Shown: piece after piece, positions 18,433 through 49,005 of the stretch
Numbering within the stretch: the first letter of the stretch is position 1
Layout of the letters: each line of letters begins with the position of its first letter
Assembly (NCBI GenBank): GCA_015075625.1
Contig: JABTTZ010000001.1
Location: forward strand, 310,001-374,000
Source of the DNA: Anaerolineales bacterium
GTDB lineage: Bacteria; Chloroflexota; Anaerolineae; Aggregatilineales; UBA2796
Length of the DNA stretch: 64,000 nucleotides
Direction: 5' to 3'
Notes under the pieces: model-generated
Seen by the model: the letters and a program-made list of their open reading frames with translations, nothing else
Told to the model about the DNA's origin: nothing
Database searches by the model: none
Made by a program: the position numbers and the translations under genes

Positions 18433-18436
18433 GGCG

Positions 18437-21400: not shown

Positions 21401-22003
21401 CGTGTAGAACGGCTGAATCAGCGGCTTGACCTCGCGCTCAATGTGATCAAAAAACGCCTGCACCTGTTTGGGATCGCTGCACGCCAGTTCGTTTTTGGTC
21501 ACGAACCACGCCACCGGGTTCAGGTCGATGCCTGTCATCTGAAAGCCGAGACGCGCGCCTTCGACCATGGTCGTGCCGCCGCCCATGAAGGGTTCCAGCA
21601 CCCGCAGTTTTTTGAAGCTGCCCGCCTTCTGGTGGTTCGCGTAGTAGTGATCCCAGACCAGTTTGCCCGCTTTGGTGGGGTCTTCGGGCGCTTGGGTGGC
21701 CGCCGCGATCAGCAGGCTGCGAAAGACGCTGGATCGCCGCCGCGCCCACCACTTGGACATCTGGTAGATTGGCTTGCCTGCATTACCTTCCAGATTGGAG
21801 AGGGCGTTGATCGGCGCAATGGGAAAATCAACCTCCAGGCAAACGGGAGGTCGATTCGGGTCGTTAAAATCAGGCACGGGCAGCCGAATCGCCTTGCCGA
21901 GATTTGGCGGCTGGTAGGCGGGCGCTTTTTTGGTCTTGTCTTTTTCAACCTTCTTCAGCTCGTCCGGTTCAACCGGCATCAGCTCTTGCTGTTTATTCGC
22001 CAT
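18437..22003 (-). CDS. DUF1156 adenine-specific DNA methylase (PglX-like)
   Basis: A 1188-residue methylase starting at ATG 22003. The N-terminal DUF1156 region (LSNLEGNAGKPIYQMSKWWA) leads to SAM motif I EPFMGGGTT (139-145) and GIDLNPVAWF. Four Cys-rich zinc knuckles follow (CPDCGRAF, CPHCGAF, CQSCGRQQ, CHCPQC), then the catalytic motif DPPFGDN (D762) of amino-methyltransferases. This is the COG1743 architecture used as the modification enzyme in BREX type 3. Length is typical and no frame disruption is visible. It starts 11 bases after the PglZ stop. Confidence 0.85.
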   Translation of the reverse strand: MANKQQELMPVEPDELKKVEKDKTKKAPAYQPPNLGKAIRLPVPDFNDPNRPPVCLEVDFPIAPINALSNLEGNAGKPIYQMSKWWARRRSSVFRSLLIAAATQAPEDPTKAGKLVWDHYYANHQKAGSFKKLRVLEPFMGGGTTMVEGARLGFQMTGIDLNPVAWFVTKNELACSDPKQVQAFFDHIEREVKPLIQPFYTTTCPRGHQGQWIDLETDLPADVDPLTLPPEDRKRYRWYGPEIIYTFWAKHGPCKADGHRTPLFKSPVVAEKKLTTAFIPTSCPDCGRAFHIELGETRMAPGVERVVLDNEPSFTETTQAFAQLLKDYSKGSSAEKTARINELIETIDDEPGLRCPHCGAFAGRRIKQVAEKHKKVQRQSDIKKGDYGIETRHVYMYLLIHPDWLRGTPGELDGQPLGGWAGADPDSTARWYSARMEGLRLIEVRGRIKLADETTPDDEDTDAGEEGASEADGDDRKGYGLPREIVLSDGSRITTRIGTIPAKAAFACQSCGRQQDVLEAVKASNHTGAMAVYALQCHCPQCALEGYNYTGRYFKAPDDSDVEKLIAAETEWATRNIADLESYFPHPALPYAWKTSHWDIQGHGYTHWWKMFNSRQLLVHAQLLRAITNGGGDWALDVREQALGAFQQYLRNQNMFVFWNTQRDTPEPMFSNPNYHPKQQVLENSVWGYLGRGNWLSCVQACIEGLEWSSEAWEVAFDNSRTSHRILTDDPVPFAVSTLYCQSSTDLADLATRGLVDLVVTDPPFGDNINYADLADFFYVWLRIPLQKWYAGLSEAEYFKPEFTPKSIEAIENWAEHPDDRTPEEKRPLLEDKTPNSAFRLPPAEEFYQNALMECWYQAGKLLKPGGLMAFTFHHDEDRAWANVLAALFQAGFVLVATYPIRSDETKGDKAQFGSQKIEYDIIHVCRKRLDDPQPVSYAGMRRWVKDEVNRLKLLLEHTHGKTLPDSDLRVILRGKALEFYSRHYGQVLTGDRQALGVRDALLGINQLLDDLLEQGTVRRPPENAEPMSRLYLRIFQSRSAMSRDELHKTLRGTGVSQDALEAAGWIEARGTTIEAKPIRERFAFFTAPGRNRKVLKTDLDQAHFLIGAALPGSGIDITKELSNRETFKLKKSVDAILTWYSQVDPNASIREAAGRALALVGHWRAEQAKTPETMQLSLFEQLDMEDN

Positions 22004-22013
22004 ATTCACTCAA

Positions 22014-22973
22014 TTACTTCGCAGGTAGTCTTACAAACGGTACAGCCACTTCTAGGAGGCTCAGGCCGCCGTGACACAGGTTGGGAAAGCCACCTTGCAC
22101 GCTCCACTTACGCTGCCCAATGACCACATGCTGGTTATTCTCAGTCAGCACCAACGGCGGCATGAAGCGATTTTCCCAAACGGCGGAAGCGGGTTTCGTC
22201 CGAGAGGCGCTGAAGGTGTCGCGCATCAACTGGATGCTCTCTTTGTCGGTAATCTCATCCGAGAAGAGTTTGCTGGTTGCGTAACCATGATCACCGGTGA
22301 TGACCAGTTCACGACCCTGACGCATCCGATCCACAAGCGCCCAGAACCCGGCATCTTTGAGCATATCAGCAGCCTGTTTGTAGACTTGCTCTGGCGCTTT
22401 CTGCTCATGAATCAGGTCGTCAATGAAAGTGTGCCAGAGGAGGATGTTGTGTTCATAGGGCACGCTGCCCACGCAATCTTGAAAAGGCACACTCAGCACA
22501 TCGGTGTAGGTCTGCGCCAGCGCAAATCCACCCGGTTTGCCGTTGTTGGTCAGGCTGCTTCGTGTGGACGCACCCAGCGCCTGAGCAAAGCGATTGGTGT
22601 CCGATGGAACCTCTGATCCGGTTACGACAACCTCGATAGGTTGGATATTATGCGCCGCTGCACCCTCCAACAGCACGTGCAGTTCACGAAGGGATAGCGC
22701 ATCCAATATCAGGGTGGCGCGACCAGTTGCCGCTGGCTGTGCATACCAGCGTTTCAGGCGCGCTGCTGTGCGCTCTGCGCTGGCGGAGTACGCCTCCCAA
22801 AGCTCCCAACCGCTCTCCGCCAGCAGCCGATCAGGCGCGACGGTCTGGTTGTGGAGTTCTGTTGGAGACGTGGCCTGAACGGCAATGTCGTTCAGGTGTT
22901 GGAAAATCGCCTGCCATGCCTCCGTTGGCGTGGTCGCGCCCAGGATTACCTCTGTCCAGCCCAGCGCGTTCAT
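22014..22973 (-). CDS. Compact PglZ-domain protein
   Basis: A 319-residue protein of the alkaline-phosphatase-like PglZ family: LILDALSLREL around D91 fits the metal/nucleophile strand and TGDHGYA (D228, H229) is the characteristic PglZ DHG motif. PglZ proteins in established BREX systems are usually 650-900 residues; this one is essentially the catalytic core. It overlaps the DUF499 gene by four bases (ATGA), so stoichiometric co-translation is likely. PglZ is essential for BREX defence, though its substrate is unknown. Confidence 0.75.
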   Translation of the reverse strand: MNALGWTEVILGATTPTEAWQAIFQHLNDIAVQATSPTELHNQTVAPDRLLAESGWELWEAYSASAERTAARLKRWYAQPAATGRATLILDALSLRELHVLLEGAAAHNIQPIEVVVTGSEVPSDTNRFAQALGASTRSSLTNNGKPGGFALAQTYTDVLSVPFQDCVGSVPYEHNILLWHTFIDDLIHEQKAPEQVYKQAADMLKDAGFWALVDRMRQGRELVITGDHGYATSKLFSDEITDKESIQLMRDTFSASRTKPASAVWENRFMPPLVLTENNQHVVIGQRKWSVQGGFPNLCHGGLSLLEVAVPFVRLPAK

Positions 22974-25726
22974 CGGGACTCGTCCTCTTCGTTATAGGAG
23001 ATTTCGAGCAAAGCCCGCAAGGATGATGGTATGCGCGTGAGAATTTGTTTCAACTCCTGGACAGTCAGGTTGCCAAATTCCAGCTTGGCAGTCGTCAACC
23101 GCGTGCCGGAAGGCACATTCCAGCTTTCCAATTTACCCGCCAGATTGATACTGGTATTGGCGTCATCGGTACGTTGTGTTCTCACAACGGGCTGCTTCGG
23201 TATTGGCGTCGGGTCGGGTTGTACGGGCGGTACAACGACAACAGGTTGAGCGCCGCCGGGGACGGTTACAGATATGGGCGGGTTGGTTGATCCCGGCGTG
23301 GGTGCAGGTTGGGGTGGTGTGATCGGCGGTACAGTGACGGTTGTGCCGCCGACGGCTTCGGGCAGGGCGATTTGCACAGCCCTCAACTCCGAGCCAGAAC
23401 GGAAAGCACGGCTCTTGACATGGTTGTATGCTTGGTCGCTGGAAGTATGCTCGGTCAATCGGCGAATCCAAGCGCCGCCTACATTGAGCGCGATCTTGCC
23501 ATCGGCGGCCATGCGCATAATACGCTCATAGATGCGCGTATCTCCGAGGAAGGGAGTAGCTTCCTCAGCGGGCGAAGACGGCGGCTCGTAGAGATAATCC
23601 AGCACATCTCCAACGACTCCGGTATCTTTGGCGATTTCAAGGATGTAGTTCTCGAACGGCGCGAAATCGAATATCTCGTCGTTGATCTTGGCTTCTACCT
23701 GAGCCGGGATGTCCTCGCCCTGCGCATTGACACGTTCCCATGTAAAGCGGCAAGCTGCCGGATTCTGAAAATCCCAATGCTGCAAAATAGCGAAGCGGTC
23801 AAAGCGCGTTTTCAGCGAATCGCGCAGCGGCTTGTCGAACTTGTCCTTCAGGGCACGGTACTTGCCGTCATCCTTCCATGCGATTGAGGTTAGGAAAGAC
23901 CCACGGGCATTTTGGATCATGGTCTGATCAGTGTATATGCCTTGTGTTCCTGCCCCAAGCAGAAGGAACCTCACCGTATTGCGTCGCCGGGAAACATGAG
24001 CCTTGAGCCATTCCCCCAAGCCGAGAATACGCCCGTCAGCCTCAATCGTGACCGGATCGGGAATAACCAGCAATACCGGGCGATCCCAGCGGGCAGGCTG
24101 ATCCGCTTCGTCAACATCCTTCCAGGGGTCGCGCTGCCAGTTAGGGCCAAGTACGATGATCCGCGATGGTCGTTCTTTTGCCTCTGGAGAGAGGATCGAA
24201 CGGAATGTCTTTCGAATGTGGCTGATGTCTTCACCCGGAAAGACCTGACTCCCGATTGTCGCTACAGCGCCTGGCTCCCAAAGCTTGTTGTTGCGTGCAA
24301 TGGTGCGTACTCTGGTGGTGGGATTTTCTTCTAGTTCGAAGCGCAGACGCTCGTTCCCAATTTCACCCCCATGAATATTCGGGGCATGGTCTTCCAACTG
24401 ACTCAATTCGACACGGAAGGCATTGTCGTCTTGGGATGCGCTGCGGGTAATGTCAAGCTGAAGTTCCTGACGGGTCGCGCCGTTGTTCTTTCCTGACGAA
24501 AGGGAGCGCATCCACAGCGCGCTTACGAGTTCACGGGCATGGGGAACAGGCGCATTTGTCGAGGCAATGCTTTCAAGATTACGTTGCGCAACAGCCCGCA
24601 GTTTTTCCTGGTCAGCGGCTGTCGCAATCGAGTCAAGCAGTGTGGTTACGCCGCCTGAATCGTCATCAACAAAGAAATCGGCTGGTGTGATGACCGGTGA
24701 GTGCTCCCCTCGTGCGCGATACACTTGGGCCAAGATTCGGATCAGGTCACGTGTCTCCTGTGCCGCTTCTGCCATCAGAATCTGATCTTCAAGCAGTTCG
24801 AGCAGTTCTGGCGCGAAGGGCCATGCGCCGATAACCTCGCCCGTAATTCGATCTTGCTCAGACTGAGAGATCCCAGCATAACGTAGGCGAAAACGCTCTG
24901 ATGCGTAAGCATTAACAAGCGATCTGATCTCGGCCTGCGGTATGTTGCCTCGGTTCATGAACAACCGATGCAGCAACAATCGCTGCCTATCCTGACGGGC
25001 TGTCGGCCCCCGGAAATCCACAACTACGGGTGTGTTGCGATGAACCTGCTTAAATGCCTCAGTTTGGTTGTTCAATACCGAAATCACCAAAATGAGGTGT
25101 TCTGGTCTATCTTTGGAAAGCTCCGATAGAATCTGGATGAAATTTGAAGCGTTGGTCTGCCACTTGCGTCCTGCGGGATCATCATGTAGTCCATCAAACC
25201 ACTTCTGGAACTCGTCCAGAATCAGCGCAACGGGCTGTTCCTTGAACATGCGCTCCAGTAGCGAACGCGCAGGAAAAGGATTGCCGGATGCCTCGAACTC
25301 TCCCCTGTAATATTGGCCTCGCGGGTGCCGATCAAAGATCAGGTTCCACAGAAGGGGATATTCTTGATTGTGAACAGCTTCTGAAATAGCCTGATAGCCT
25401 CGCTGAATAGACAGTGAGGTCAGTGTGGGCGATCCAACACGGTTTCCCCAGTCTCGCACCCAAGGTTCCATTGTATCGGGGGAAGAAATCGCATGATGCA
25501 TCACCGCCATAATGTGCGATTTGCCACGTCCGCGATCTCCCATCAAGACGATGGGACGCCCCTCTCTGGTCACGCTGATCGCTTTCAAGGCGTTCTGGAT
25601 ATCCGTTGTGGGATACGTGATTTCCTGTATCCAACTCGGCGGACGCTGTTTCACGTCAGCCAACGCGATGGCGGTGCCCGGCGTCTGGGCGTTAAGAAAT
25701 TCAGGTCTGAGCTGAAGATTCAGCAT
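22970..25726 (-). CDS. DUF499 AAA+ ATPase (BrxC/PglY-like)
   Basis: A 918-residue ATPase. Walker A is GDRGRGKS (63-70), preceded by TTDIQNALKAI, and Walker B is PVALILDEFQKW. A Pro/Thr/Val-rich linker (about 815-865) precedes a short C-terminal domain. DUF499 proteins belong to the BrxC/PglY group of large BREX ATPases. First gene of the BREX-like operon, with AGAGG 11 bases before ATG; the 120-bp gap to the HU gene should hold the promoter, but I cannot place one convincingly. Confidence 0.8.
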   Translation of the reverse strand: MLNLQLRPEFLNAQTPGTAIALADVKQRPPSWIQEITYPTTDIQNALKAISVTREGRPIVLMGDRGRGKSHIMAVMHHAISSPDTMEPWVRDWGNRVGSPTLTSLSIQRGYQAISEAVHNQEYPLLWNLIFDRHPRGQYYRGEFEASGNPFPARSLLERMFKEQPVALILDEFQKWFDGLHDDPAGRKWQTNASNFIQILSELSKDRPEHLILVISVLNNQTEAFKQVHRNTPVVVDFRGPTARQDRQRLLLHRLFMNRGNIPQAEIRSLVNAYASERFRLRYAGISQSEQDRITGEVIGAWPFAPELLELLEDQILMAEAAQETRDLIRILAQVYRARGEHSPVITPADFFVDDDSGGVTTLLDSIATAADQEKLRAVAQRNLESIASTNAPVPHARELVSALWMRSLSSGKNNGATRQELQLDITRSASQDDNAFRVELSQLEDHAPNIHGGEIGNERLRFELEENPTTRVRTIARNNKLWEPGAVATIGSQVFPGEDISHIRKTFRSILSPEAKERPSRIIVLGPNWQRDPWKDVDEADQPARWDRPVLLVIPDPVTIEADGRILGLGEWLKAHVSRRRNTVRFLLLGAGTQGIYTDQTMIQNARGSFLTSIAWKDDGKYRALKDKFDKPLRDSLKTRFDRFAILQHWDFQNPAACRFTWERVNAQGEDIPAQVEAKINDEIFDFAPFENYILEIAKDTGVVGDVLDYLYEPPSSPAEEATPFLGDTRIYERIMRMAADGKIALNVGGAWIRRLTEHTSSDQAYNHVKSRAFRSGSELRAVQIALPEAVGGTTVTVPPITPPQPAPTPGSTNPPISVTVPGGAQPVVVVPPVQPDPTPIPKQPVVRTQRTDDANTSINLAGKLESWNVPSGTRLTTAKLEFGNLTVQELKQILTRIPSSLRALLEISYNEEDESR

Positions 25727-25845: not shown

Positions 25846-26142
25846 CTAACGAATGGTGTTCAGACGCGATCTGAGTTTCTTGCTTGCTCTGACAATCAAT
25901 CTGCTGGTATGGCGTGGCGCACGGCGTAACTTGCCGCCGACCATGAGCTTACCCGCGTTCTCGCCCCTGTCCACCTGCTTCACCTCCAGCACGAGGAAGT
26001 TCTGAATCTCGATCCGCCCGCCGCTGGCGAGTGCTTCCGTCCAGACCTCGATAAGCGCTTCCAACATCCGCTGCACCTCGTGATTACGCAGGCGGGTGCG
26101 GCGTCCGATTTCGGCGACTGTCTTATTTTTGTCCAACGACAT
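25846..26142 (-). CDS. HU/IHF-family DNA-binding protein
   Basis: A 98-residue protein from ATG 26142, overlapping the VirD4 gene by 20 bases. It shows the HU pattern: N-terminal helices (VAEIGRRTRLRNHEVQRMLEALIEVW), GGRIEIQNFLVLEV, then a basic arm and tail. HU proteins bend DNA and could act in the relaxosome or in excision of the element. A degraded relative lies at 62575-62685 in the chromosome. Confidence 0.82.
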   Translation of the reverse strand: MSLDKNKTVAEIGRRTRLRNHEVQRMLEALIEVWTEALASGGRIEIQNFLVLEVKQVDRGENAGKLMVGGKLRRAPRHTSRLIVRASKKLRSRLNTIR

Positions 26143-28159
26143 CGATTTCCCTCTTTGCCGCGTCTCGACGGCGGCGCATCTCGCGGAGATTAGTGAACTG
26201 CGTTTCATTCCCGCCTGTACGTTTGTCCATTGCCTGCGCCCGTTCCATCGCTCGGATCGCAGCTTGCTCGAAGGTGGACTGCGTGTTTCCCTGCGGTTTA
26301 TCCGGCAAGGCGGGTGCGGAGATAGGTTTAGGAGTAATCGCTACGCCACGCTCTAAAAGCAGCGGCTCTTCTGGATTAGCAGCCTTGAACCGCGCTGTCC
26401 AGTCCTCCCGCTCGTAGAGGCGCGTCAGGCGTGCCGTGAGGATGACCTGCGTGGCGAAGGAAGGCTCCACGTAGCGAGCGAAGATCGTGCAGTTGCCCAT
26501 CTGCGGTGTGACCACTTCATCAACGGTCAGCAGCGGGCGCTGCCGCAAGTTACCCTTGTTCGGGTCAGGATTCGCGTCCACCGTCGCCGTGCCGGAAGCC
26601 TCGCTGTAGAACTTGGCGGTGTCGTGGTCGCAGCCGCCGTAGACGATCTGGGTCGCCAGTCCGGTGAATAACGCCTGGGTGCCCTCGTCGCCATAGATGA
26701 GGTGGAACTGCCCTTTCGTCTGTGCGCCTATCAATATGGAAATCCTTCGTTTCCGCACAAGGTTCACATCAGCCACGAGGCTGTCCAGCTTGCCAAGCGT
26801 CGGGAACTCATCCAGGATCACGCCGACGGGCATGGGCAGCGGCCCCTTGTTGCGTTCGCCGAGGGTATCCAGATCGAGCATGAGCTTGCGCAACGTCGCG
26901 CCGAGGTACGAAGCATAGACGGCGCGCATTCTGCCGGGGCAGGTCAGCACCACCACTGTTGGCTGCGAGACAATCAGATCGGCGTCAAAGTCTGAGGCAC
27001 TGGTGTTGGCCCGCACATCGGTGGATGCCCAACCCGTGAGCGCTGTCGCCAGGGTCGCCACCACATTCGAGGCCACCTTGCCGTCTGCGCCCACGCTGGC
27101 GATGAAGCTGTTCGCCAGCAGGGAGGCGTCATCTTTGCCCGCAGCCAGGGTCTCGGCCAGCTTCTTCAGGTCATTGAGCGCGTTGTAGATTTCGCCCAGA
27201 TTGTCGAACCGGATCAGGCACGCGGCCAGCAGCGCCGCCGCGCTGTCCGTCCAGAACTTGTTGTCACCCTGGGCGGAGGGCACCAACACGTCAGCAATTG
27301 CCCGCGCATCGGAGACATTCGCAATGCCTTCCGAAAGGTTGTAGCGCGGCCCGATGGAACTGGTTGGATCGTGAATGACGACCAGATGGCGCGTGACACG
27401 CGCGAACTTCATGACGTGCCCCGTGATCTCGCCCTGCGGGTCGGCCACGATGAGGCTGTGTCCGGCGAGCATCCGGTCAGCGATGACAGGCAGAATCACG
27501 CCTTGAGTCTTGCCGGAACCGGGGCCGCCGAGCGTCAAAATGCCACGCGCAGCATCTTCCCCGTTCAAGCAGAATTTGCCAAATCCGAAATCCAACCGCC
27601 GCTTGCCATCACCCCAAAATGCGCCAAGGAAGGTCACGCCGTCTTTGTCCTGGCGACGATAGCGGCGATATTCACGGCTGGAGCAGAAGTGCGACGATCC
27701 CATCTCGCCGCGCTTCACAACAGGCCGACGTAACCTGTCTACCCACTCGTGCAGCCATCCACCGCTGCGTAATGCGCTGTGCAGGCCGATGCTGACCATG
27801 ACGAGGGCAAAAATCAGCCCCATGCCGACCATGAAGACACGCATCGGATTGACCGTTGGCGGCGCGCCAGCAAGCAACAGGATAAAGTCATTTGTCGTGG
27901 CTCTGCCAACTTGTCGCACAAGGGCGAAGTTGCTGAACAGGTGGAGATACAGAGCGGATACGCCCAGATTGACGATGGCGTAGGCGCACAGCAGATACAG
28001 GCGGCGGCGACCTCTGAAGGATGCCGAGTCGCCTGTGCGCTGGATGCCCGCGCCAAGCAGTCCGGCGACGACAAGCGGCGTGGATACGGTCAGGCACAGG
28101 AGCGGTGTAAGGCAGCCGCCCAACAGCGCTTTCCCTTCAGTGAACAACCAGTAAAACAT
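26123..28159 (-). CDS. virD4: VirD4/TraG-family coupling ATPase
   Basis: A 678-residue type IV coupling protein. The N-terminal 120 residues hold about three hydrophobic segments; the ATPase domain has Walker A GGPGSGKT (211-218) and Walker B VGVILDEFPTLG (D450, E451). It links the relaxase-DNA complex to the secretion channel at the inner membrane. It sits inside a tight - strand operon with the relaxase upstream and an HU-like gene downstream, the usual mobilisation arrangement. It looks intact. Confidence 0.9.
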   Translation of the reverse strand: MFYWLFTEGKALLGGCLTPLLCLTVSTPLVVAGLLGAGIQRTGDSASFRGRRRLYLLCAYAIVNLGVSALYLHLFSNFALVRQVGRATTNDFILLLAGAPPTVNPMRVFMVGMGLIFALVMVSIGLHSALRSGGWLHEWVDRLRRPVVKRGEMGSSHFCSSREYRRYRRQDKDGVTFLGAFWGDGKRRLDFGFGKFCLNGEDAARGILTLGGPGSGKTQGVILPVIADRMLAGHSLIVADPQGEITGHVMKFARVTRHLVVIHDPTSSIGPRYNLSEGIANVSDARAIADVLVPSAQGDNKFWTDSAAALLAACLIRFDNLGEIYNALNDLKKLAETLAAGKDDASLLANSFIASVGADGKVASNVVATLATALTGWASTDVRANTSASDFDADLIVSQPTVVVLTCPGRMRAVYASYLGATLRKLMLDLDTLGERNKGPLPMPVGVILDEFPTLGKLDSLVADVNLVRKRRISILIGAQTKGQFHLIYGDEGTQALFTGLATQIVYGGCDHDTAKFYSEASGTATVDANPDPNKGNLRQRPLLTVDEVVTPQMGNCTIFARYVEPSFATQVILTARLTRLYEREDWTARFKAANPEEPLLLERGVAITPKPISAPALPDKPQGNTQSTFEQAAIRAMERAQAMDKRTGGNETQFTNLREMRRRRDAAKREIDVVGQK

Positions 28160-30450: not shown

Positions 30451-30502
30451 CTCCCCCCACCCCGCTATCTCGATACACAAAACCATGTCGAGGTGGGGGG
30501 AG
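30451..30502. repeat. 11-bp inverted repeat around a 30-nt loop
   Basis: CTCCCCCCACC (30451-30461) and GGTGGGGGGAG (30492-30502) are perfect complements. Inside, CTCGA and TCGAG can add an inner stem. The C-run/G-run arms make a stable hairpin, the kind found beside nic sites or at structured RNA ends. Confidence 0.75.
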
Positions 30503-30587
30503 TGACCGCCGCAACGCGGCGGATGCCCGCCTGCCAGGGCGGGCATAGCAGCCGTGCCGACCCGCCAAGATCGGGATACCCGGAGTT

Positions 30588-30642
30588 GTACGACCTCGGT
30601 ACGACCACTTCGGCAAAACGGTACGACCCCGGTACGACCTGC
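30588..30642 (+). repeat. Helically phased GTACGACC direct repeats
   Basis: GTACGACC begins at 30588, 30599, 30621 and 30632, i.e. offsets of 11, 22 and 11 bp; the empty slot at 30610 reads TCGGCAAA. Sites would therefore lie on one face of the helix, as for cooperative binding by an RHH or iteron protein. The block lies 85 bp before the RT start and about 400 bp from the mobilisation operon start. Confidence 0.85.
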
Positions 30643-30726
30643 CTTGATCCCTTACCGTGTTGCGGCATAGAATTATGCGCAATCATTCGTGTTGACCGCA
30701 TTGAAGGCTCTCTGAGGAAATCCGTA

Positions 30727-33700
30727 ATGCAGTACACTTGGGACGACGCAGTCACCAATGTTTACCAGGAAGTCATTCAGCACATATGTAGCCTATATGC
30801 TGCACCACCCCGACAATGGCTTAACAAACCCCTGTCGTGTAATTCGATTGCTGGAACTGTTGATCCGAATGGAAAGGTTAATGTCAACGATGAATCACCT
30901 GACAGTATAGCCGGACAGTTCTACGACTACATGCCAGGGCATAGTTTCAAAGTTCAATACTTGATAGACCATCTGGACAAGCATTATGCACTGTCTCTCC
31001 ATACAGAACGGGCATGTCTTGCCATTGTGGACATCGGTTGTGGTGGTGCGACAGCAACGACAGCGCTCATCAACATGCTTTTGCGAAAATCCGAGAGAGA
31101 CACGCGCTTTTTATTTGTGGGGATAGACACCAATCACTGCGCTGTTCAGCTCTATGATTGGATGATGCAGGGTTATTCTCGCGTTTCAGCCTTGGAGGAA
31201 CGCATCGACTATCATGCTGTCATAAAAGGAATGCCCGAAGTATTGACTTATGTGGCCGAAGGTTTGCATCAAGCGAAAAAGAAATGGGCTATTCCATCGC
31301 TAAACGATCTCTGGGTTATCCAATCGAATGTAGTTCGACCATTGCAGAATATCTGGGAGGAGGACAAAAAAGCGCGGAATAGCTTAGGACTAGATGCCAA
31401 CCGAAGTCTAATTCCCGATGATTTCGGTGAGGTCGAGGCACGCGCTTATGAGCAGTTGTTGCGGCTCAGTGAGGCGGATCGGATGCTCGTTATGACAGTG
31501 GCGACTAATGACGATAACTGGCGTGGCAGCTCGAGTCAGTTTGGTGACTCCGTGATGCGCATATTCTCAGATAGGAGTCATAGAGCGACCCGTCTTTATG
31601 CACCGCTAGTCGTTGCCCAGCCCTTGTCCGTGTCGTATACAAATCCTGATGGAAGCTATTGGCGTACTCAGCGCAGGGTTACAAGTTATACAGCGAGATT
31701 CTATGCCGATGTAGAACATATCGAAAGCCAACATTTTCTGGCTGATCGGGATTGGCAAGAGATCATTTCGCTGGAGAATCTAAAACTCGCATGGGTGCGG
31801 GTCCGTGCTGCCATGATCCGCGAGTCAATAGTAGACGAAGTTGATCTAAAGCTGTTTGAGTACAAGCTTGACGGCAACCTGCAGGCCATTCGAAACCGTT
31901 TACTGACTTATACAACTCGCCTGACGGATTTCCCACGCCTTTTCTACAGTGTCCCCAAAGATGAAGGCAAGTCTCGCCCGCGAGCACTGCAATCAATTCA
32001 TGAGGAGGTTTTGGCGGTAGCGATCATTCAGGTTCTCGGTCGAACGGTACAAGAGCTAATGGCCCGCAATTACGGGTATCGCCTCGACCTTGCCGGAAAT
32101 ACTGAATACTTGTATCGTCCGTGGTTCCGCTCCTACGGGCGTTTTCGAAATGCGGTAAGAAGGGCGCTGCGTGGTGGGGATGAGAATGGGATTATAATCC
32201 GGAGCGATATTGCTAACTTCTATCCCACCATCCCGCAAGAAAAGCTACTCACTACAGTTTCGGCTAAACTCCGAATTGAGGCGAATCCACGGGTTGTTTG
32301 GCTATTGCGACAACTCTTGTTGCGCTCTGAAAATGAGAAAGACGGTGGCGTACTGCAGGGGCCATTGGCTTCTGGGTTCTGGGCAAACTTGTATTTACTC
32401 GAATTGGACAGTCGATTCTCAGATGACTATGCACATGCATCGTTCTACCGGTACGTTGATGATATGGTGCTTGTTGTCCCCGATGCGTCAGCGAAGGATA
32501 GGGTGTTGCAGGATCTCAGAGAAAGCATCGGGGAATTGGGACTGAACTTGTCCGATGATAAGACGGATAGTGAGTCGGTCGTCAGTGCGTTGGAAGCGCT
32601 AGAAAGAGATAAGACTCTTGATGATTTGGACAAGCGGTTTCGGCAGTTGACGGATGGGTTGTATTTCACGCATCCCGATTATCACGCGAAGCTACGGCTC
32701 GCCGCAGAGCATGATTGGTGGAAATTCATCTATGCCTACCAGCAATGTTTGAGTAAGTTGGGAGTTTTTGTCGAAGCATCTCGCTTAAGTCGAAAGGTGT
32801 GGCAGTATGTACAGAATCCCTTGCTGCGCCGAGAAGTGCGAAAAGAGTTTCCCGCGTTTGATCACTCGCAAGATCGTGACTTATGGACTCGGCAGTTCAT
32901 CGAGGAAAATGATCAGTGGAGCGGTGAGTACAATGCCATAAAGACTGAGTTGTCTAATTTACTTTTAGAAAAGTGGGGTGAGTGGAAAATCCTTAAGGCT
33001 GAGAACCCGGATAAATTGGGCGAGAAAGAACAGAAAGCGAACCTCAAGAATATCCAAACTTATCTTAGCTTTACCCTGAATCGGCTTGCGCGACTTGGGT
33101 ACGATCAGGTTCTAAACATAGTTATCGAGATCATCAGCAATTTTCCTTACGTTCTGAAGTCTCCACGAGTAGTCATTGAGCATTTGGCGTTGCAAGGTCA
33201 TGTTGAGCACCTTCATACCATTTGGCAACAGCTCCATGAGGCAGTTTTCCCAGGCATTTCATCCTTGAGGGCGCTCATCCTTCGGTTCTTTCGTTCGACG
33301 GAGGCGGTACAAAATCGGGGGATCATCCGTATTCTGGAGGGCATCAGTGTGAATGACAGAGTATTCACAGATGATGAATTCTTGGTGGAAGCATTGATGG
33401 CTACCGAGACACTCATTTTCACCCCTCAATATACCCCTGATGTCCGTCAGCAGAAGGCATTTGCTGGTTGTGCGATCCAAATCAAGGATCGATGTGCACA
33501 ACTTGCGCGTAACCTCCTCATTTTGGCACAGCGGAACGGGAGTCAGCAGGAGCAATACGATCTCATGCGTGAATTGATGGCTGAGTGGTATTCGTTGGAC
33601 AACAATTATAGAACATATCAGGAACCAGATTTTGACAGTGAGATTATCGAACCGGAGGTAGTACGGAAAAACTACTACTACTCGCGTTATCCTGACAATG

Positions 33701-33729
33701 TGGAGGAGTTTGAAGGCGACTACTTTTGA
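30727..33729 (+). CDS. Methyltransferase-like domain fused to reverse transcriptase (probable defence RT)
   Basis: ATG 30727 (GAGGA eight bases upstream) gives 1000 residues; the frame is open further upstream but runs through the repeat region. Residues ~95-240 look like a Rossmann SAM-methyltransferase: VDIGCGGATATTAL (motif I, D102) and FVGIDTNH (acidic D134). Residues ~400-640 are a reverse transcriptase: SDIANFYPTI (D494), GVLQGPLASGFWANLYL (motif B), YRYVDDMVLV (Y576-V-D578-D579) and GLNLSDDKTDS. A helical tail of ~350 residues follows. There is no maturase or endonuclease domain and no intron structure was noticed, so it fits the 'unknown group'/defence-associated RT class. The fused methyltransferase-like domain is unusual. 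The gene is AT-rich relative to the ICE backbone and stands alone. Confidence 0.85.
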   Translation: MQYTWDDAVTNVYQEVIQHICSLYAAPPRQWLNKPLSCNSIAGTVDPNGKVNVNDESPDSIAGQFYDYMPGHSFKVQYLIDHLDKHYALSLHTERACLAIVDIGCGGATATTALINMLLRKSERDTRFLFVGIDTNHCAVQLYDWMMQGYSRVSALEERIDYHAVIKGMPEVLTYVAEGLHQAKKKWAIPSLNDLWVIQSNVVRPLQNIWEEDKKARNSLGLDANRSLIPDDFGEVEARAYEQLLRLSEADRMLVMTVATNDDNWRGSSSQFGDSVMRIFSDRSHRATRLYAPLVVAQPLSVSYTNPDGSYWRTQRRVTSYTARFYADVEHIESQHFLADRDWQEIISLENLKLAWVRVRAAMIRESIVDEVDLKLFEYKLDGNLQAIRNRLLTYTTRLTDFPRLFYSVPKDEGKSRPRALQSIHEEVLAVAIIQVLGRTVQELMARNYGYRLDLAGNTEYLYRPWFRSYGRFRNAVRRALRGGDENGIIIRSDIANFYPTIPQEKLLTTVSAKLRIEANPRVVWLLRQLLLRSENEKDGGVLQGPLASGFWANLYLLELDSRFSDDYAHASFYRYVDDMVLVVPDASAKDRVLQDLRESIGELGLNLSDDKTDSESVVSALEALERDKTLDDLDKRFRQLTDGLYFTHPDYHAKLRLAAEHDWWKFIYAYQQCLSKLGVFVEASRLSRKVWQYVQNPLLRREVRKEFPAFDHSQDRDLWTRQFIEENDQWSGEYNAIKTELSNLLLEKWGEWKILKAENPDKLGEKEQKANLKNIQTYLSFTLNRLARLGYDQVLNIVIEIISNFPYVLKSPRVVIEHLALQGHVEHLHTIWQQLHEAVFPGISSLRALILRFFRSTEAVQNRGIIRILEGISVNDRVFTDDEFLVEALMATETLIFTPQYTPDVRQQKAFAGCAIQIKDRCAQLARNLLILAQRNGSQQEQYDLMRELMAEWYSLDNNYRTYQEPDFDSEIIEPEVVRKNYYYSRYPDNVEEFEGDYF

Positions 33730-42352: not shown

Positions 42353-44494
42353 CTATAACCAGAATGGAATATGTCCTCCTGCACTCTTCGGGCGCACTCC
42401 CCGTAAAACTAAATAACCGATGGCATCACTGTAGTGCAGTGAAACTGGCAAACGCGGCATTGGCACGGAACCATAGTGCAGATGCGTCATTGCTAGCACA
42501 GAATGCAAGGCTTCTTCAATGCTGAGATTACCCATCGAACGAACGTGCAATGGACGGGGTGTTGAATTCTTGGTCGGAGGCAATGACGAGACCAAGAACG
42601 CTTCCCGATCATTAAGAACGAATGCGGTTCCTTTCTGCGGACGGAGAATCCTGTCATATTCCTCGATATACAGGCGCGGAACTTTCGATTTCACTACTTC
42701 AACTGGAAAGAACTTAGCTCCAATGTCGTCACCCCACGCCTTAATATTGGCGACCTCATTGCCTCGATACAATCCATCACGATGAATAATCGTTCGCTTG
42801 CCTGCGAACTCGCTGGATGGTAGCAGTCTTCGTAGTTCGCTTTGCGTTAGCATCTCGCCCTGAACTAATGTGTCGAGGAATGTGTACTTCAAGAAGTCCC
42901 CGTTTGCGGCGTAAATACGTGTCATCGCGGCGATATTGCGGCTGCCAGCGGTGCGCTCGTTACGCTCACGCGCAATATCAATCCCCACAACCAGATCAGT
43001 ATATGGCAATGGCTCGTCTAGGACATATGGCACTGTACCTGTTTTAGCAAGTATACCGAGTACAATGTTGCTGATTGCATAGTTCTGGCGCAGTGTCGTT
43101 TCATAAATGAACTGACTTTGAAGATCGTGGGCCAGCGTGATCGCTTTCAGGTCATGGTAGAGACTGTCGGCAACCTCCCCGTCGAGGGGATTACCTGGCA
43201 AAACAGCGATAATGAGATGCGGGTTCAGTAGAGCCAGCTTTTCCACAGCTATTTCAAGGGCGTGATGTGATTTTCCGTCAGGTCGTGCTGCTCCTATAAA
43301 ATTCACCGGGAAACCGATGGCAGCTAGTTCTTTGCCGATTTGACCGAGATACGACTTTCCCTGTGGATGTTCTCCGATAAGGTTGAGTGTTGCAAGACGC
43401 AGGGGGCTGCTACCCAAATCTGCTGCGCGGCGGTACGGCGGAAATTTGCGCAGGGCTGCTAGAACAGCTTGTGGATCGCATCGGCATGAAGCGTTATTTC
43501 CCAAACGCGCTTTTATTCCGAGTTGACTGTCGAGATTCAGCATGAACCGCGCTTCATGTACTTCGCTGTTGAAGGGTTCAGCCTCGATATATCCCAACTC
43601 CGCGAAGAGACGCGCGATTTGCTGAACGATTTCGCGCCGTGGATCAGATGAGATTTGCAGATTGCTAAGAGCATCCTGACCGTTGATGTCGAGCTTTCTA
43701 TACTGCTCAGTCGTCGCAATCATCTGCAAGGCGCTTGCAGGATAATCGTAGCTCTTCCCTGACACGGTTCGGACATGAAGGACCAAATCTTCGTTTGGAG
43801 CATTCTTGATGATGGCTTTCATTTCGTTACGGGTTGTGCGGGCCAGTAAGTTTTCTCGATGCTCTGCCATTGTCCCCACTATCTGTGTGATTTTGCCTGT
43901 TAAGTTTCCGGTTTTATCCTTGACTTCTACGCCTACAAGGTCGTTCAACTTTCCAACCAGATCGCGGATGTAGTCCGTAAGCGAACGCGCCGGGAAGAGC
44001 TTCGAGTTCACCGATATGGCCAGCGCAGGTTGACCTTCGACAACCATCCCGCGAATATCATCATAGCGTTCTACAGTAGCGTTACGAATACGGCGCTGAT
44101 GCGCATCTAGGATTGCCCTAATCTCTTTCCGGTGATCTTCTGCTACACCAAAAGCAACGAAATCGGCCTGAGTCCGTGCCGTTGCTGAGAATGCTTTGTC
44201 CACACCCACCGAGCGCATCTTCTTGAACACATCGTCATCTTCTTCCCATAACTTCCGTAGAAGCACCATCAGGTCATCGGCCTTCTGCACCATATCCGTC
44301 ACCAAACGGCTCTGTGACCATATGGCACGTTTTCCGAGTTTCACACGAACCCGATGAGCGAATTTCCGACCTAGTTCAGCGGCATCCTCTTCGGGAGCAT
44401 GAACGATCCATCCGGTAAGAGGCGGTAGACCATCTGCTTTGATGGGATAGACATCAACGATGACTTTCGTTTTCGTCATAGCACTTGTGACCAT
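42353..44494 (-). CDS. ago: Long prokaryotic Argonaute, apparently catalytic
   Basis: ATG 44494 with AAGGA eight bases upstream gives 713 residues, a normal length for long pAgos. The PIWI domain has the four catalytic positions: D506 in VVGIDIARE, E547 in VQGEML (glutamate finger), D573 in IIHRDGLYRG and D690 in LHYSDAIGY, a complete DEDD tetrad with spacing close to Thermus Ago. MID-like sequence precedes it, and the N-terminal half should contain N and PAZ domains, which I cannot delimit. Such enzymes use short DNA or RNA guides to cut invading nucleic acid. Divergent from the XRE/ImmA pair, with a shared control region; AT-richer than the ICE backbone. Confidence 0.9.
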   Translation of the reverse strand: MVTSAMTKTKVIVDVYPIKADGLPPLTGWIVHAPEEDAAELGRKFAHRVRVKLGKRAIWSQSRLVTDMVQKADDLMVLLRKLWEEDDDVFKKMRSVGVDKAFSATARTQADFVAFGVAEDHRKEIRAILDAHQRRIRNATVERYDDIRGMVVEGQPALAISVNSKLFPARSLTDYIRDLVGKLNDLVGVEVKDKTGNLTGKITQIVGTMAEHRENLLARTTRNEMKAIIKNAPNEDLVLHVRTVSGKSYDYPASALQMIATTEQYRKLDINGQDALSNLQISSDPRREIVQQIARLFAELGYIEAEPFNSEVHEARFMLNLDSQLGIKARLGNNASCRCDPQAVLAALRKFPPYRRAADLGSSPLRLATLNLIGEHPQGKSYLGQIGKELAAIGFPVNFIGAARPDGKSHHALEIAVEKLALLNPHLIIAVLPGNPLDGEVADSLYHDLKAITLAHDLQSQFIYETTLRQNYAISNIVLGILAKTGTVPYVLDEPLPYTDLVVGIDIARERNERTAGSRNIAAMTRIYAANGDFLKYTFLDTLVQGEMLTQSELRRLLPSSEFAGKRTIIHRDGLYRGNEVANIKAWGDDIGAKFFPVEVVKSKVPRLYIEEYDRILRPQKGTAFVLNDREAFLVSSLPPTKNSTPRPLHVRSMGNLSIEEALHSVLAMTHLHYGSVPMPRLPVSLHYSDAIGYLVLRGVRPKSAGGHIPFWL

Positions 44495-44524
44495 TGCATT
44501 TGTCCTTTCCAAGTCGAGAAAATG

Positions 44525-44545
44525 TGCTATACTTTCGATATAGCA
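44525..44545. promoter_or_regulatory. Perfect inverted repeat in the Argonaute promoter region
   Basis: TGCTATA and TATAGCA (7 bp each) flank CTTTCGA, 31 bp upstream of the Argonaute ATG. Size and place suit an operator; it differs in sequence from the site next to the XRE gene. Confidence 0.6.
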
Positions 44546-44584
44546 AACCCGCGTTTGTTAAAGCAAAATGATAACAGACAATAA

Positions 44585-44602
44585 CGTTCTGTCAAGAGAA
44601 CG
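44585..44602. promoter_or_regulatory. Probable XRE operator
   Basis: CGTTCT and AGAACG flank GTCAAG, 21 bp before the XRE start. A plausible promoter (TTGTTA at 44555, ACAATA near 44578) lies just upstream, so a bound repressor would block transcription. Autoregulation by the adjacent XRE protein is inferred. Confidence 0.6.
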
Positions 44603-44623
44603 ATAGTTTTAAGGAGAGAACGC

Positions 44624-45001
44624 ATGTCGAACATCGGGGAACGAATCAAACTGCGTCGCACGGAGATGAACATTGCGTTGGCAGAATTGGCGAGGCGGGC
44701 GGATTTATCGAAGGGTTATCTCCACGCTATCGAGTCAGGGGATACTCAAAGCCCATCCGCAGAGATTTTGTTCAGGATAGCGAACGAGCTAGGAACCACC
44801 ATTGCCGATTTATTAGGTGAGGAACAGGTTGAGCCTGTTTCGACGGAGATTTCAGAATCACTCAGGGACTTTGCGAGAGCCGAAAATCTGACAGAAGCAG
44901 ATGTCGAGATGCTGTCCCGTATTCAGTATCGAGGGAAACGACCAGACAACGCAGATGACTGGCGCTACATCTTTGAATCTATAAAACGCACATTACGCTA
45001 A
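44624..45001 (+). CDS. XRE-family transcriptional repressor
   Basis: A 125-residue protein with an N-terminal Cro/C1 helix-turn-helix (GERIKLRRTEMNIALAELARRADLSKGYLHAIESG...), good RBS AAGGAGAG, and a C-terminal helical part ending in FESIKRTLR. Next to an ImmA-type protease it forms the classic pair in which the protease cleaves the repressor after DNA damage or another signal. The likely targets are its own operator and possibly the divergent Argonaute. Confidence 0.88.
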   Translation: MSNIGERIKLRRTEMNIALAELARRADLSKGYLHAIESGDTQSPSAEILFRIANELGTTIADLLGEEQVEPVSTEISESLRDFARAENLTEADVEMLSRIQYRGKRPDNADDWRYIFESIKRTLR

Positions 45002-45023
45002 CTTTGGCCGCAGGAAGGTGACC

Positions 45024-45869
45024 ATGGAGAGTGTGGATTGGAATAGTCTACTGGCGCGTCAACTCCTCACGGAAACCCAAGCGGCTGTGATGGAAGACGC
45101 GCTGATCGCCAGGTTAGATCGAACCCTCAGTATATTCGGTACTCCCAAGTATCCAATCGACCTCCCGCTCGTAGCTTCTGTATTTGGAATTGAACCGAAG
45201 TTCAAATACGTTGAAATGGCCCAGGCGGGTCGCCTTGTTCATCTTGACGGGAAATATCATATCGAAGTGAACAAGGCTCATCCTAATGTACGCAAACGAT
45301 TTTCAATTGCTCACGAGATCGGTCATAAAGCTATCCTGACGAGCAAAATTGGGGTTCCAAAGGAACGTATATCCTATAACCCTGATATTGAAACGGGTGA
45401 GGAAGAGGAAATCTGCGATTTATTTGCTACGATGCTTCTTGGTTTGCGTCCAACCTTTATCAGCGAAACGCTTGGTGATCGAGGATGCTCGTTAGCAACC
45501 GTAGACTTTCTTGCCAAATATCTGGACGTGTCTTTTGAGGCCGTGATCCGCGCCATCGCATGTTATGGACAGATACCTGCCATATTTCTATACTGCCTAC
45601 CCGCCGCAATGGGCAATGACGAGATTTTTTATATTCAGCGCTACTACGTGACACGCCGATTCCCATACACCCTTTTGGGTCGAACGATTCTGCCCCATTA
45701 CAACTGCCTCAAACGGGCATGGCTTGGGCAAGGTACAGCAAGAACTGTGGAACACTGGCAAAATGAATCTGGTCTTGGAGCGTCTTGTATTTTTGAGTCT
45801 ATGCGTATGCCCATTTATGTTGGAGACTCTAAAAAAGATGGGCTTGTCGTTGCAGTTATAGCCCAATAA
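45024..45869 (+). CDS. ImmA/IrrE-family metallopeptidase
   Basis: ATG 45024 (AGGAAGG five bases upstream; GTG 45018 rejected) gives 281 residues. RFSIAHEIGHKAI carries the HExxH zinc site (H97, E98, H101), and EEEEICDLFATMLL supplies the third acidic ligand. ImmA proteins cleave partner XRE repressors in ICEs such as ICEBs1. It follows the XRE gene after 22 bp, so the two are co-transcribed. The C-terminal ~120 residues are extra relative to minimal ImmA and may sense a signal. Confidence 0.88.
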   Translation: MESVDWNSLLARQLLTETQAAVMEDALIARLDRTLSIFGTPKYPIDLPLVASVFGIEPKFKYVEMAQAGRLVHLDGKYHIEVNKAHPNVRKRFSIAHEIGHKAILTSKIGVPKERISYNPDIETGEEEEICDLFATMLLGLRPTFISETLGDRGCSLATVDFLAKYLDVSFEAVIRAIACYGQIPAIFLYCLPAAMGNDEIFYIQRYYVTRRFPYTLLGRTILPHYNCLKRAWLGQGTARTVEHWQNESGLGASCIFESMRMPIYVGDSKKDGLVVAVIAQ

Positions 45870-45881: not shown

Positions 45882-47414
45882 TTAGCTCAAAAGTGTCCTC
45901 GCCCGATACTGCACTGCCTCAGCCACATGCTCCGTGCGGATGATGTCGCTGGCCGCGAGGTCGGCGATGGTGCGGCTCACCTTCAACACTCGATGATAGG
46001 CGCGGGCGCTCAGTTGCAACTTGCGCAGCGCGGCCTTCAGCAGCGTTTCGGCAGACTCATCCATCGTGCAGAACTTCTCGATCTCGCCCGCACCCAGATC
46101 GCTGTTGGTCAGCACGCCGGGCAGATCACGATGACGGGCATATTGGCGCTCGCGCGCCTCTTCAACCCGCGCTTGAATGACTGCCGATGGTTCGCCGCGT
46201 CGCGCATCGGTCAGTTTGTCGTAATCGACCCGTTGTACATCCAATTGAATGTCAAAACGATCTAGCATGGGGCCGCTGATGCGTGCTTGATACTTGCGCA
46301 CCAACGGCTCAGAACAGGTACAGGCTCGCATTGAATCGCCCCGATAGCCGCAGGGGCACGGGTTCATACTCGCCACCAGAATGATGTTGGCGGGAAACGT
46401 CACCGAGCCGCGCACGCGGCTGATCGTCACCACTTTATCTTCGAGCGGCTGACGCAGGACTTCAAGATTCCTGCCCATCTCCAACACCTCGTCCAGATAA
46501 AGCACGCCTCGGTGCGACATGCTCAGCTCACCGGGGCGCGGTATGCTGCCGCCGCCGATCAAGCCTGCCTCCGAGATGGTATGGTGCGGCGCGCGGAAAG
46601 GGCGGCGCTGCGCCATGCCTTTGCCAGAAGGCAGCAGATCAGCAACCGAGTAAATGCGGGTGATCTCAAGGGCTTCCGGTGGGGTTAGTTTGGGCAGGAT
46701 GCCGGGAAGCGCTCGCGCGATCAGCGTCTTGCCCGATCCGGGTGGGCCGGAGAGCAACGCGTGGTGGCCGCCAGCCGCCACGATCTCCATCGCCCGTTTC
46801 ACAAACTCCTGCCCTTTGATGTCCGAGTAATCCACGAGACGTTCCGGGCCGGGTTCGGTGGCTGGCGGCGTGCGGTTGCGATCATAAGGTGGGATGATAT
46901 TCAGCTTAAAAACATGTTCGACCAGATGCCCCAAACTGGACACCGGGATCACATCGATGCCTTCTACGAGTGCCGCCTCTGCCGCATCACATTCAGGCAC
47001 ATAGAGGGTGGAGTACCCCAATTCGCGTGTCATATAGGCGAAGGACATCACACCCCGCACGTGTCGTAAAGTGCCGTCCAGTGAGAGTTCGCCAACGAAA
47101 ACAGCATCCTGAAGCGACTCAGGCGGGATTTGTTCCGTCGCGGCGAGTACCCCCATCGCAATGGGCAAATCGTAAGCGGGGCCTTCTTTACGCATCTCCG
47201 CGGGGGCTAAGTTCACTAAATAACGACGCATAGGAAAATCCAAGCCACGATTGCGAACTGCCGACCGAACACGTTCTCGGCTCTCTTGGACCGCCGTATC
47301 TGGTAGTCCGACAATCGTAAAACCTGTCATTCCGCGCGGATTGTAATCCACCTCAACTGTGATCCTGACTGCATCCAACCCGACGAGTGCGCCGGACTGT
47401 ACAATAGAAAGCAT
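45882..47414 (-). CDS. comM: ComM/YifB-type Mg-chelatase-like ATPase, complete copy
   Basis: Start 47414 (MLSIVQSGALVGLDAVRITV) gives 510 residues, the usual ComM length. N-terminal ChlI-type fold, Walker A GPPGSGKT, MSHRGVLYLDEVLEMG (Walker B), the Cys-rich NPCPCGYRGD...CTC segment, and the Mg-chelatase C-terminus. ComM is a hexameric helicase that promotes branch migration during natural transformation. The 3' half and more is closely related to the truncated gene at 47651-49005, which lies back to back with it. It is interpreted as carried by the ICE, though a duplicated chromosomal copy cannot be excluded. Confidence 0.88.
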   Translation of the reverse strand: MLSIVQSGALVGLDAVRITVEVDYNPRGMTGFTIVGLPDTAVQESRERVRSAVRNRGLDFPMRRYLVNLAPAEMRKEGPAYDLPIAMGVLAATEQIPPESLQDAVFVGELSLDGTLRHVRGVMSFAYMTRELGYSTLYVPECDAAEAALVEGIDVIPVSSLGHLVEHVFKLNIIPPYDRNRTPPATEPGPERLVDYSDIKGQEFVKRAMEIVAAGGHHALLSGPPGSGKTLIARALPGILPKLTPPEALEITRIYSVADLLPSGKGMAQRRPFRAPHHTISEAGLIGGGSIPRPGELSMSHRGVLYLDEVLEMGRNLEVLRQPLEDKVVTISRVRGSVTFPANIILVASMNPCPCGYRGDSMRACTCSEPLVRKYQARISGPMLDRFDIQLDVQRVDYDKLTDARRGEPSAVIQARVEEARERQYARHRDLPGVLTNSDLGAGEIEKFCTMDESAETLLKAALRKLQLSARAYHRVLKVSRTIADLAASDIIRTEHVAEAVQYRARTLLS

Positions 47415-47420
47415 AAACAA

Positions 47421-47471
47421 ATAATCCCCATAAGCACCGCCGCCCTTCCTAGCAGCACTGCTGGGGATTAT
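47421..47471. repeat. 10-bp perfect inverted repeat upstream of complete comM
   Basis: ATAATCCCCA (47421-47430) and TGGGGATTAT (47462-47471) are perfect complements around a 31-nt loop that itself contains AGCAGCACTGCT. It lies between the comM start and the ICE/chromosome junction and could be an operator or part of the element end. Confidence 0.6.
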
Positions 47472-47650
47472 ACTCTGCCCGCAATTGTGAGCATAACGGT
47501 GTCCGGCATTGAATGACGACTTTTCGCGGGTAAATACCAAATACCTCACCGCTTTGGAGAAAGGGCGATTCTCCCTGCTGGTGCGGCACGCAAGACCATT
47601 ACGATGTCAAAAGGCGAACTGCCAAGAAGACCTGAAGTTTGTGCGCTTGT

Positions 47651-49005
47651 TCCCGATGAAGCGCTACCTCGTCAATTTAGCCCCGGCGGAGATGCGCAAA
47701 GAAGGACCCGCCTATGACCTGCCCATTGCTATAGGCGTTCTTGCTGCGACGGAACAAATTCCGCCAGAGTCCCTTTCCGATGCCCTTTTTATTGGGGAAC
47801 TTTCACTGGATGGGACGTTGCGCCATGTGCGCGGGGCGCTCTCCTACGCTTACCTTGCCAGAGATTTAGGACTCAGCCGGCTCTATCTGCCCGAATGTGA
47901 TGCACTTGAAGCGGCGCTCGTTGACGGCATTGATGTAATCCCCGTCCCGACGTTGGGGCATTTGGTTGAACATATCTTTCAATTGAATGTCATCCCCCCC
48001 CTAGATCGCACCCAAATAAACCTCACCCCAACACAGCCCCCCGAACGCCTTGTTGATTTCTCCGACATCAAAGGGCAAGAATATATCAAGCGGGCGATGG
48101 AGATTGTGGCGGCGGGCGGACACCACGCCCTGCTTTCCGGGCCACCCGGTTCGGGTAAGACATTGATCGCCCGTGCGCTGCCGGGCATCCTCCCCAAACT
48201 GACCCCTGAGGAGGCACTCGAAATCACCCGCATTTACTCCGTGGCTGATATGCTCCCACAGGGAAAAACGCTGGCGCAGCGCCGTCCCTTTCGCGCCCCC
48301 CATCACACGATTAGCGAAGCGGGCTTGATCGGCGGCGGCAGCATCCCGCGCCCTGGCGAGATCACGATGAGTCATCGGGGCGTTCTGTATCTCGATGAGG
48401 TATTGGAGATGGGACGCTCTTTGGAAGTCTTACGCCAGCCTCTTGAAGACAAGATGGTCACCATCAGCCGCGTGCGCGGATCAACCACCTTTCCGGCAAA
48501 CATCATCCTCGTCGCCTCGATGAATCCCTGTCCGTGTGGCTACCGAGGGGACATCCTGCGGGCGTGTACATGCAGCGATCAAGCCGTGCGGAAATATCAA
48601 CAGCGCATCAGCGGTCCGATGTTGGATCGTTTCGATATTCAACTCGATGTACAGCGCGTGGACTTCGATAAATTAACCGAGGATCGACGCGGCGAATCCT
48701 CAGCAATCATCCAAGCCCGTATCGAACTTGCCCGCGAGCACCAACGTCAGCGCTATGCACACCTTTCGGGGGTGCTGACGAACAGCGATCTTGGGGCGGG
48801 CGAGATCGATGTATTTTGTAAGATGGATGAATCCGCCGCGACTCTGCTGAAAGCTGCCATGCGAAAACTTCAACTGAGCGCCCGTGCTTACCATCGCGTA
48901 TTGAAGGTTAGCCGCACCATTGCCGATTTAGCCGCCAGTGAGATCATTCGGACAGAGCATGTGGCAGAGGCGGTGCAGTATCGATCTAGGGTGCTTGTTG
49001 GGTGA
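47651..49005 (+). pseudogene. comM: Resident comM lacking its 5' end
   Basis: From FPMKRYLVNLAPAEMRKEGP onward this matches the complete comM through to the end with most residues identical, including GPPGSGKT and NPCPCGYRGD. The first ~65 codons are missing; upstream sequence in this frame (to 47509) has no ComM similarity. An ATG at 47656 could still initiate a 449-residue protein, so a truncated product is possible. The break is where the ICE right end is placed; the missing 5' part should lie beyond the left end of the ICE. Confidence 0.85.

Follow-up and report, generated by a model that had tools for sequence, protein, structure and literature searches.

Bacterial proteolytic switches that join a repressor of the XRE family to a metallopeptidase of the M78 family include two described systems. 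In the radiation/desiccation response of Deinococcus, the protease PprI (IrrE) is reportedly activated by single-stranded DNA (ssDNA) and cuts the repressor DdrO in its C-terminal domain, and the same source describes CapP and CapH as behaving alike (PMC10904395). PprI requires the residues E, L, G, and R at the cleavage site of DdrO (PMC4374696), and the DdrO motif has been published as TATGYYHTTARCRKA (PMC8533742). CapH+CapP, for its part, has been published as a neighbor of immune operons, Bub and CBASS among them, and together with CapW/BrxR it makes up two families of ssDNA-responsive regulators associated with the immune operons CBASS, BREX, Pycsar, DISARM, and Bub (PMC13373217). Here, a pair of this kind is described next to the gene of a prokaryotic Argonaute (pAgo) in an Anaerolineales bacterium (assembly GCA_015075625.1), within a stretch of 64,000 nucleotides, referred to as the window, that covers positions 310001–374000 of contig JABTTZ010000001.1 (C1). 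A DNA-damage switch of the DdrO/PprI (CapH/CapP) type, acting by proteolysis, probably controls this pAgo and derepresses it when DNA is damaged.

The induction of pAgo genes has been little studied. In the main text of a 2018 pAgo survey, a word search for terms beginning with regulator, HTH, Xre, protease, peptidase, or M78 returned nothing (PMC6299218), and no paper presenting a pAgo as the client of a CapH/CapP- or DdrO/PprI-type switch was found in a literature search that left subscription papers mostly outside its reach. The initial annotation of this DNA had called the pairing of a pAgo with such regulators less familiar; this holds for the pAgo as client, which was not found in print, and not for the neighborhood of immune operons as such, where this kind of regulator is already described (PMC13373217). 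The regulator is of a known kind, and the pAgo is its new client.

The pAgo gene lies on the minus strand (42353..44494) and encodes 713 amino acids from the ATG at 44494, which is the best start in a frame open from 42353 to 44512 and is preceded by GGAAAGG. The product is a full-length protein with a PIWI domain, as befits a long catalytic pAgo: the Pfam Piwi model matches it (E = 1.1e-15), and the PADLOC pAgo model PDLC02396 covers residues 17–719 of the 719-residue open frame (E = 8.4e-199). Its closest solved structures are 9iad (E = 1.5e-72) and the Aquifex protein AaAgo (1yvu, E = 2.6e-30), both of the long-A type, which it resembles in being full length with a DEDD tetrad and from which it differs in having a dedicated, divergent repressor/protease pair of its own. 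The residues that had been proposed as catalytic from inspection alone, D506, E547, D573, and D690, are indeed the conserved tetrad when counted from the ATG at 44494; the DEDX pattern is intact, in the form DEDD. Among viral contigs, no relative of the pAgo, the XRE protein, or the protease was found; plasmids gave pAgo-like matches in 12 records, none spanning 80% of the query, and no match to the protease.

On the opposite strand, the XRE gene (44624..45001, plus strand, 125 amino acids) is followed after 16–22 bp by the gene for the M78 metallopeptidase, or ImmA (45018..45869, plus strand; the ATG at 45024 is preferred by eye), a spacing from which a single transcript is probable. Both proteins match their families, HTH_3 (helix-turn-helix) for XRE (E = 1e-11) and Peptidase_M78 for ImmA (E = 3.9e-8) in Pfam, and the PADLOC models capH (E = 9.3e-14) and capP (E = 2.3e-18), so that an HTH repressor adjoins an M78 metallopeptidase as in CapH+CapP. 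Compared with sequences of solved structures, the XRE protein is most similar to Deinococcus DdrO, over residues 4–124 and hence its full length (E = 1.9e-11), including the C-terminal dimerization and cleavage domain; the match to the CapH chain 7t5u, an HTH fragment, is weaker (E = 2.2e-6). The protease is closest to PprI/IrrE (8slm, E = 1.6e-4; 3dte, E = 6.4e-3). Profiles built from the relatives of each protein strengthen the same assignments, with E = 1.2e-32 to DdrO for XRE, and E = 3.1e-20 to PprI and 1.2e-14 to CapP for the protease. The metal ligands H99, E100, H103, and E130, that is, the HExxH motif (here HEIGH) and the third ligand Glu, are invariant in all eight aligned proteases, and RG..P is invariant in all six aligned XRE proteins, where it belongs to the C-terminal segment LSRIQYRGKRP..DDW of the window protein. 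On these grounds, kinship of the pair to the DdrO/PprI (CapH/CapP)-type switch is well supported by sequence.

The window pair nonetheless departs from each of the described systems. It shares with CapH+CapP the order of repressor and protease genes, the model matches, and an adjacent immune-type cargo, and differs in three ways: a pAgo is the cargo, and no CBASS gene was recognized next to it; pair and cargo are transcribed divergently; and the XRE protein is nearer in sequence to DdrO than to the CapH chain. With PprI–DdrO it shares an XRE protein that aligns throughout, including RGKRP..DW, and a protease that aligns over the peptidase and HTH parts of PprI; in place of a genome-wide regulon, however, there is a candidate local operator and a single defense-type cargo, the DdrO-type motif is missing from the control region, and Q-Y stands for E-L.

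The pAgo and XRE genes diverge from a common control region of 129 bp (ATG to ATG), in agreement with the roughly 130 bp given in the initial annotation, and the two inverted repeats (IRs) reported there are both present, although modest when measured against chance. IR1 (44525..44545) consists of perfect 7-nt arms, TGCTATA-N7-TATAGCA, and may be a second candidate operator or part of the 5′ leader of the pAgo transcript. IR2 (44582..44605), the candidate XRE operator, has 9-nt arms that are 89% complementary around a 6-nt spacer. The best σ70-like candidate for the pAgo promoter, TTGACA-16-TATCAT (44568..44595, minus strand), fits the consensus at 11 of 12 positions with a TG ahead of the −10, and its −35 falls within IR2, a position that raises this repeat above a chance palindrome. 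A weaker candidate for the XRE–ImmA promoter, TTTCCA-16-TATACT (44506..44533, plus strand; 9 of 12), has its −10 overlapping IR1. Both promoters are consensus matches only; two such sites occur in 301 bases, against 0.5 in shuffled sequence. IR2 has no other copy in the window, and its exact core occurs once in the genome; IR1 has no convincing recurrence in the window, where its one match, with three mismatches, lies inside the ImmA gene. That IR1 or IR2 might be a DdrO-type motif was rejected on a motif scan of the control region, and elsewhere in the 64 kb this motif has one match, at chance level.

The initial annotation had named as grounds for abandoning the idea that the gene pair never occurs beside a pAgo in related genomes, and this is not the case. 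Relatives of the pAgo were collected from overlapping genome samples (7 of 61 relatives, 9 of 400 genomes of the phylum, 20 of 396 of the class, and 34 of 150 relatives of the genome holding locus L061) and from genome contigs, which gave 28 loci; the sample around the L061 genome contributed 18 new loci, its remaining matches being already included or left out as fragmentary or weak. After the removal of repeats, 36 (without the fragment L062) and 18 make 54 distinct pAgos, and XRE and M78 genes adjoin three of them, those of the window, L058, and L061. The pair was the reason for selecting the window, without which the count is 2 of 53; three loci (L054, L057, and L160) have less than 1.5 kb upstream, and among the 51 with a readable upstream side the pair adjoins three. 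By way of background, the Pfam M78 model, run on 28 genomes only (~125 Mb) and paired with pAgo positions by coordinates and by hand, has 31 matches, from which the expected chance of one lying no more than 2 kb from any particular gene is ~0.15%. The survey itself relied on motif searches and on small profiles made from known pairs (five M78 and three HTH sequences), which could miss a divergent pair. Eleven further regions with weaker pAgo matches, 10 of which held a more distant pAgo frame, contained M78 in none. The three pAgos with the pair all keep DEDD and do not form one clade; even when only well-supported branches are counted, the tree requires three changes, each of which could be a gain or a loss. 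Recurrence of XRE and M78 beside pAgo is moderate.

All three fall within the catalytic clade (3 of 27), with none in its degenerate sister clade (0 of 27), a difference that is not significant, so that no enrichment is claimed. The 27 members of the sister clade (L011, L013–L015, L056, L057, L095–L097, and L146–L163) are full-length pAgos whose catalytic tetrads are mostly broken. By eye, L011 and L014 have similar neighbors, namely a ParA-like ATPase, a response-regulator or GAF-like protein, and a comparable gene order on the far side; this resemblance may point to a settled chromosomal role.

In L058, which lies on the same contig as L012 of the same-genus genome G001 (metagenome-assembled genome, MAG, "Anaerolinea sp. 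isolate CH2"), the pair is closer still to the Deinococcus proteins: the XRE protein matches DdrO closely (6jq1, E = 8e-45), and the protease matches PprI (E = 1.1e-16) and CapP (E = 3.3e-6). Its cleavage segment reads Q-M-R-G-K-R, in which G and the second R are kept and E-L is changed. In the control region of this XRE gene, TACGTTATCAGCGTA fits the DdrO motif at 13 of 15 positions beside a candidate −10 of the XRE promoter; matches of this level number two in the 14-kb locus, one of them this site, with 0.67 expected. Relative to the pAgo side, the pair is transcribed divergently; by eye, two small open frames (L058:7335-7835), one apparently membrane-spanning, separate the pAgo from the DdrO-like gene and may belong to the pAgo operon. 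The region also holds HsdS- and HsdM-like type I restriction genes, judged by eye from their translations.

The locus L061 (MAG "Anaerolineaceae bacterium isolate NAT290") is arranged differently. Here, XRE–ImmA, the pAgo, two small frames, and then a type II CBASS (SAVED-PNP effector, CD-NTase, and E2) follow one another on one strand (L061:6763-13891), which brings it close to CapH+CapP in that pair and pAgo precede a CBASS. A 17-bp motif, GTTGACTTGACNNNTCA, has three exact copies in 18 kb, one ahead of XRE (6781) and two ahead of the pAgo (7881 and 7924); candidate −35 hexamers TTGACT at 6787 and 7887 fall within it, and its common 11-mer, GTTGACTTGAC, is found only at these three places. 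In shuffled sequence, 0.10 matches with at most two mismatches are expected over the 18-kb locus, a figure that is no blind test because the motif was derived from its own copies. The placement of GTTGACTTGACNNNTCA before both genes is the best evidence from sequence that an XRE protein of this kind may control a pAgo.

Relatives of the pair also keep other company. A search of the phylum with the window protease found matches in 14 of 400 genomes, its own included, the others no closer than 27%–36% and with partial coverage. Among the loci read, from seven of the 13 other genomes, an XRE gene adjoins the protease in L112, L113, L116, and L118, with 54%, 48%, 33%, and 31% identity to the window XRE protein, respectively. 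The neighboring cargo is a metallophosphoesterase with an AAA protein at L113 and a DUF4062 protein at L118; given that cargo differs among these relatives, the switch appears modular, with the pAgo as one client. No convincing operator motif was common to the window and these four loci, the best shared 9-mers having a chance expectation of a fraction per pair. Two further relatives of the protease, at L114:2266-6091 and L117:2444-6144, directly adjoin the gene for a large ribonucleotide reductase, an XRE gene being recognized at L117; this is a hint that such proteases also accompany DNA-stress genes.

From these comparisons, we infer a course of events in which operator binding, ssDNA sensing, cleavage of XRE, induction, and a role in defense would follow one another. 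An XRE dimer would occupy an operator between the two divergent genes, with IR2 over the −35 of the pAgo as the likeliest site and IR1 perhaps as another, and would hold down the pAgo and probably its own operon. The M78 protease would be activated by ssDNA, whether from an attacking phage, an entering plasmid, or replication damage; XRE would then be cut in its C-terminal RGKRP segment, breaking the dimer and releasing the pAgo promoter, and the Argonaute would act on invading nucleic acid. A bolder reading, speculative and rather unlikely, is that proteolytic switches that sense ssDNA have become attached more than once to the catalytic pAgos of this clade, which would make these inducible DNA-damage effectors, linked to CBASS in one lineage. 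Provided that the Argonaute cleaves DNA, the cleavage products would in turn sustain the activity of the protease and the loop would amplify itself: damage would induce the pAgo, cutting by the pAgo would prolong the induction, and an otherwise silent nuclease would give an all-or-none response to invading DNA. If control of the pAgo by the pair is real, pAgo joins CBASS, BREX, Pycsar, DISARM, and Bub as a client of ssDNA-responsive regulators, and the carriage of a potentially self-harming nuclease at low cost would be explained.

Several observations weigh against such control. In the 129 bp, the three repeats with perfect 6-nt arms, two of which fall within IR1, compare with 0.44 in shuffled sequence (P = 0.036), and 7-nt arms occur once (P = 0.089), so that the palindromes are statistically weak, and the DdrO-type motif (radiation/desiccation response motif, RDRM) is absent from this region at two or fewer mismatches. 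In the segment MLSRIQY|RGKRP of the window XRE protein, G and the second R of the Deinococcus cut site are kept, while the E and L before the cut, needed in Deinococcus, are Q and Y, a change that could stem from co-evolution with a protease that has itself diverged or could signal a different cut. PprI has a C-terminal GAF-like domain; the match of the window protease by itself to PprI extends to about residue 196, and its structure model is of low confidence (pLDDT 38.9). In L061, the reading frame of the pAgo is split into three pieces, and CBASS may be the main client of the pair there. The trait is also that of a minority, at three of 54 related pAgos. This rarity, the weak palindromes, the other cargo beside relatives of the pair, and the position of the window within a mobile element rich in likely defense genes would all suit another account, in which XRE–ImmA has no target but itself, or in which a stray module happens to have come to rest beside the pAgo on that element, without controlling it. 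Such an account, which is rather unlikely, has to accommodate the divergent control region in common with a candidate pAgo −35 inside IR2, the exact promoter motif common to XRE and pAgo in L061, and the fact that pairs of unequal kinship adjoin pAgo in three genomes. It is far less probable that the two proteins form a toxin–antitoxin-like pair unrelated to the pAgo, with M78 as the effector and XRE as the antitoxin: a small XRE gene is indeed followed by an enzyme gene, and PDB 7t5t was deposited as "CapP toxin", but both proteins are kin to the regulators DdrO and PprI, including the C-terminal segment where DdrO is cut. The earlier suggestion that pAgo expression is inducible through repressor cleavage stands as an inference, favored by the nature of the pair, its recurrence in two other genomes, and the L061 motif.

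ImmA-like proteases regulate integrative and conjugative elements (ICEs), and the module does lie on an integrated element. This element splits comM, whose 5′ part is at C1:298635-298865 and whose 3′ part begins at 357650, and carries a large serine recombinase (by eye, C1:298768-301029) and a coupling protein of the type IV secretion system (window 26123-28159); the pAgo module is near the opposite end, ~53 kb from the recombinase. The initial annotation had offered, as its other suggestion, that the pAgo is coupled to ICE activation. In such a reading, the pair would be an ImmR/ImmA-like switch for excision or transfer of the element. The resemblance to that switch extends to an XRE protein with an M78 protease on an integrative element, and ends where the pair should stand beside the integrase and its operators recur at excision and transfer genes. 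The recombinase has a separate small XRE gene of its own as neighbor (C1:301247-301588), and in a scan for mismatched copies that covered the element except for its left 11 kb, neither IR1 nor IR2 recurs at transfer genes. Given that the candidate operators do not recur convincingly in the window and that the exact IR2 core occurs once in the genome, coupling to ICE activation gains no support; it was rejected on this ground and on the distance from the recombinase. Together with the kinship of the pair to DdrO/PprI, this makes ICE control quite improbable, if somewhat less so than the toxin–antitoxin-like pair.

The comM junctions (window 45882-49005; C1:298635-301029) share TTCCCGA, and the element seemingly brings its own full-length comM, 84% identical, which lies beside the break. 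Further genes of the window are likewise worth recording. A helicase, a DUF1156-type methylase, a weakly PglZ-like protein, and a DUF499 protein stand in a row at 15171-25726, resembling a restriction or defense array that the element carries; a 948-residue protein with Mrr_cat nuclease and nSTAND1 domains (4749-7595) is possibly another defense gene; and a protein of 1078 residues encoded within the element (30493-33729) matches the reverse transcriptase family RVT_1 (E = 1.3e-9) in one domain.

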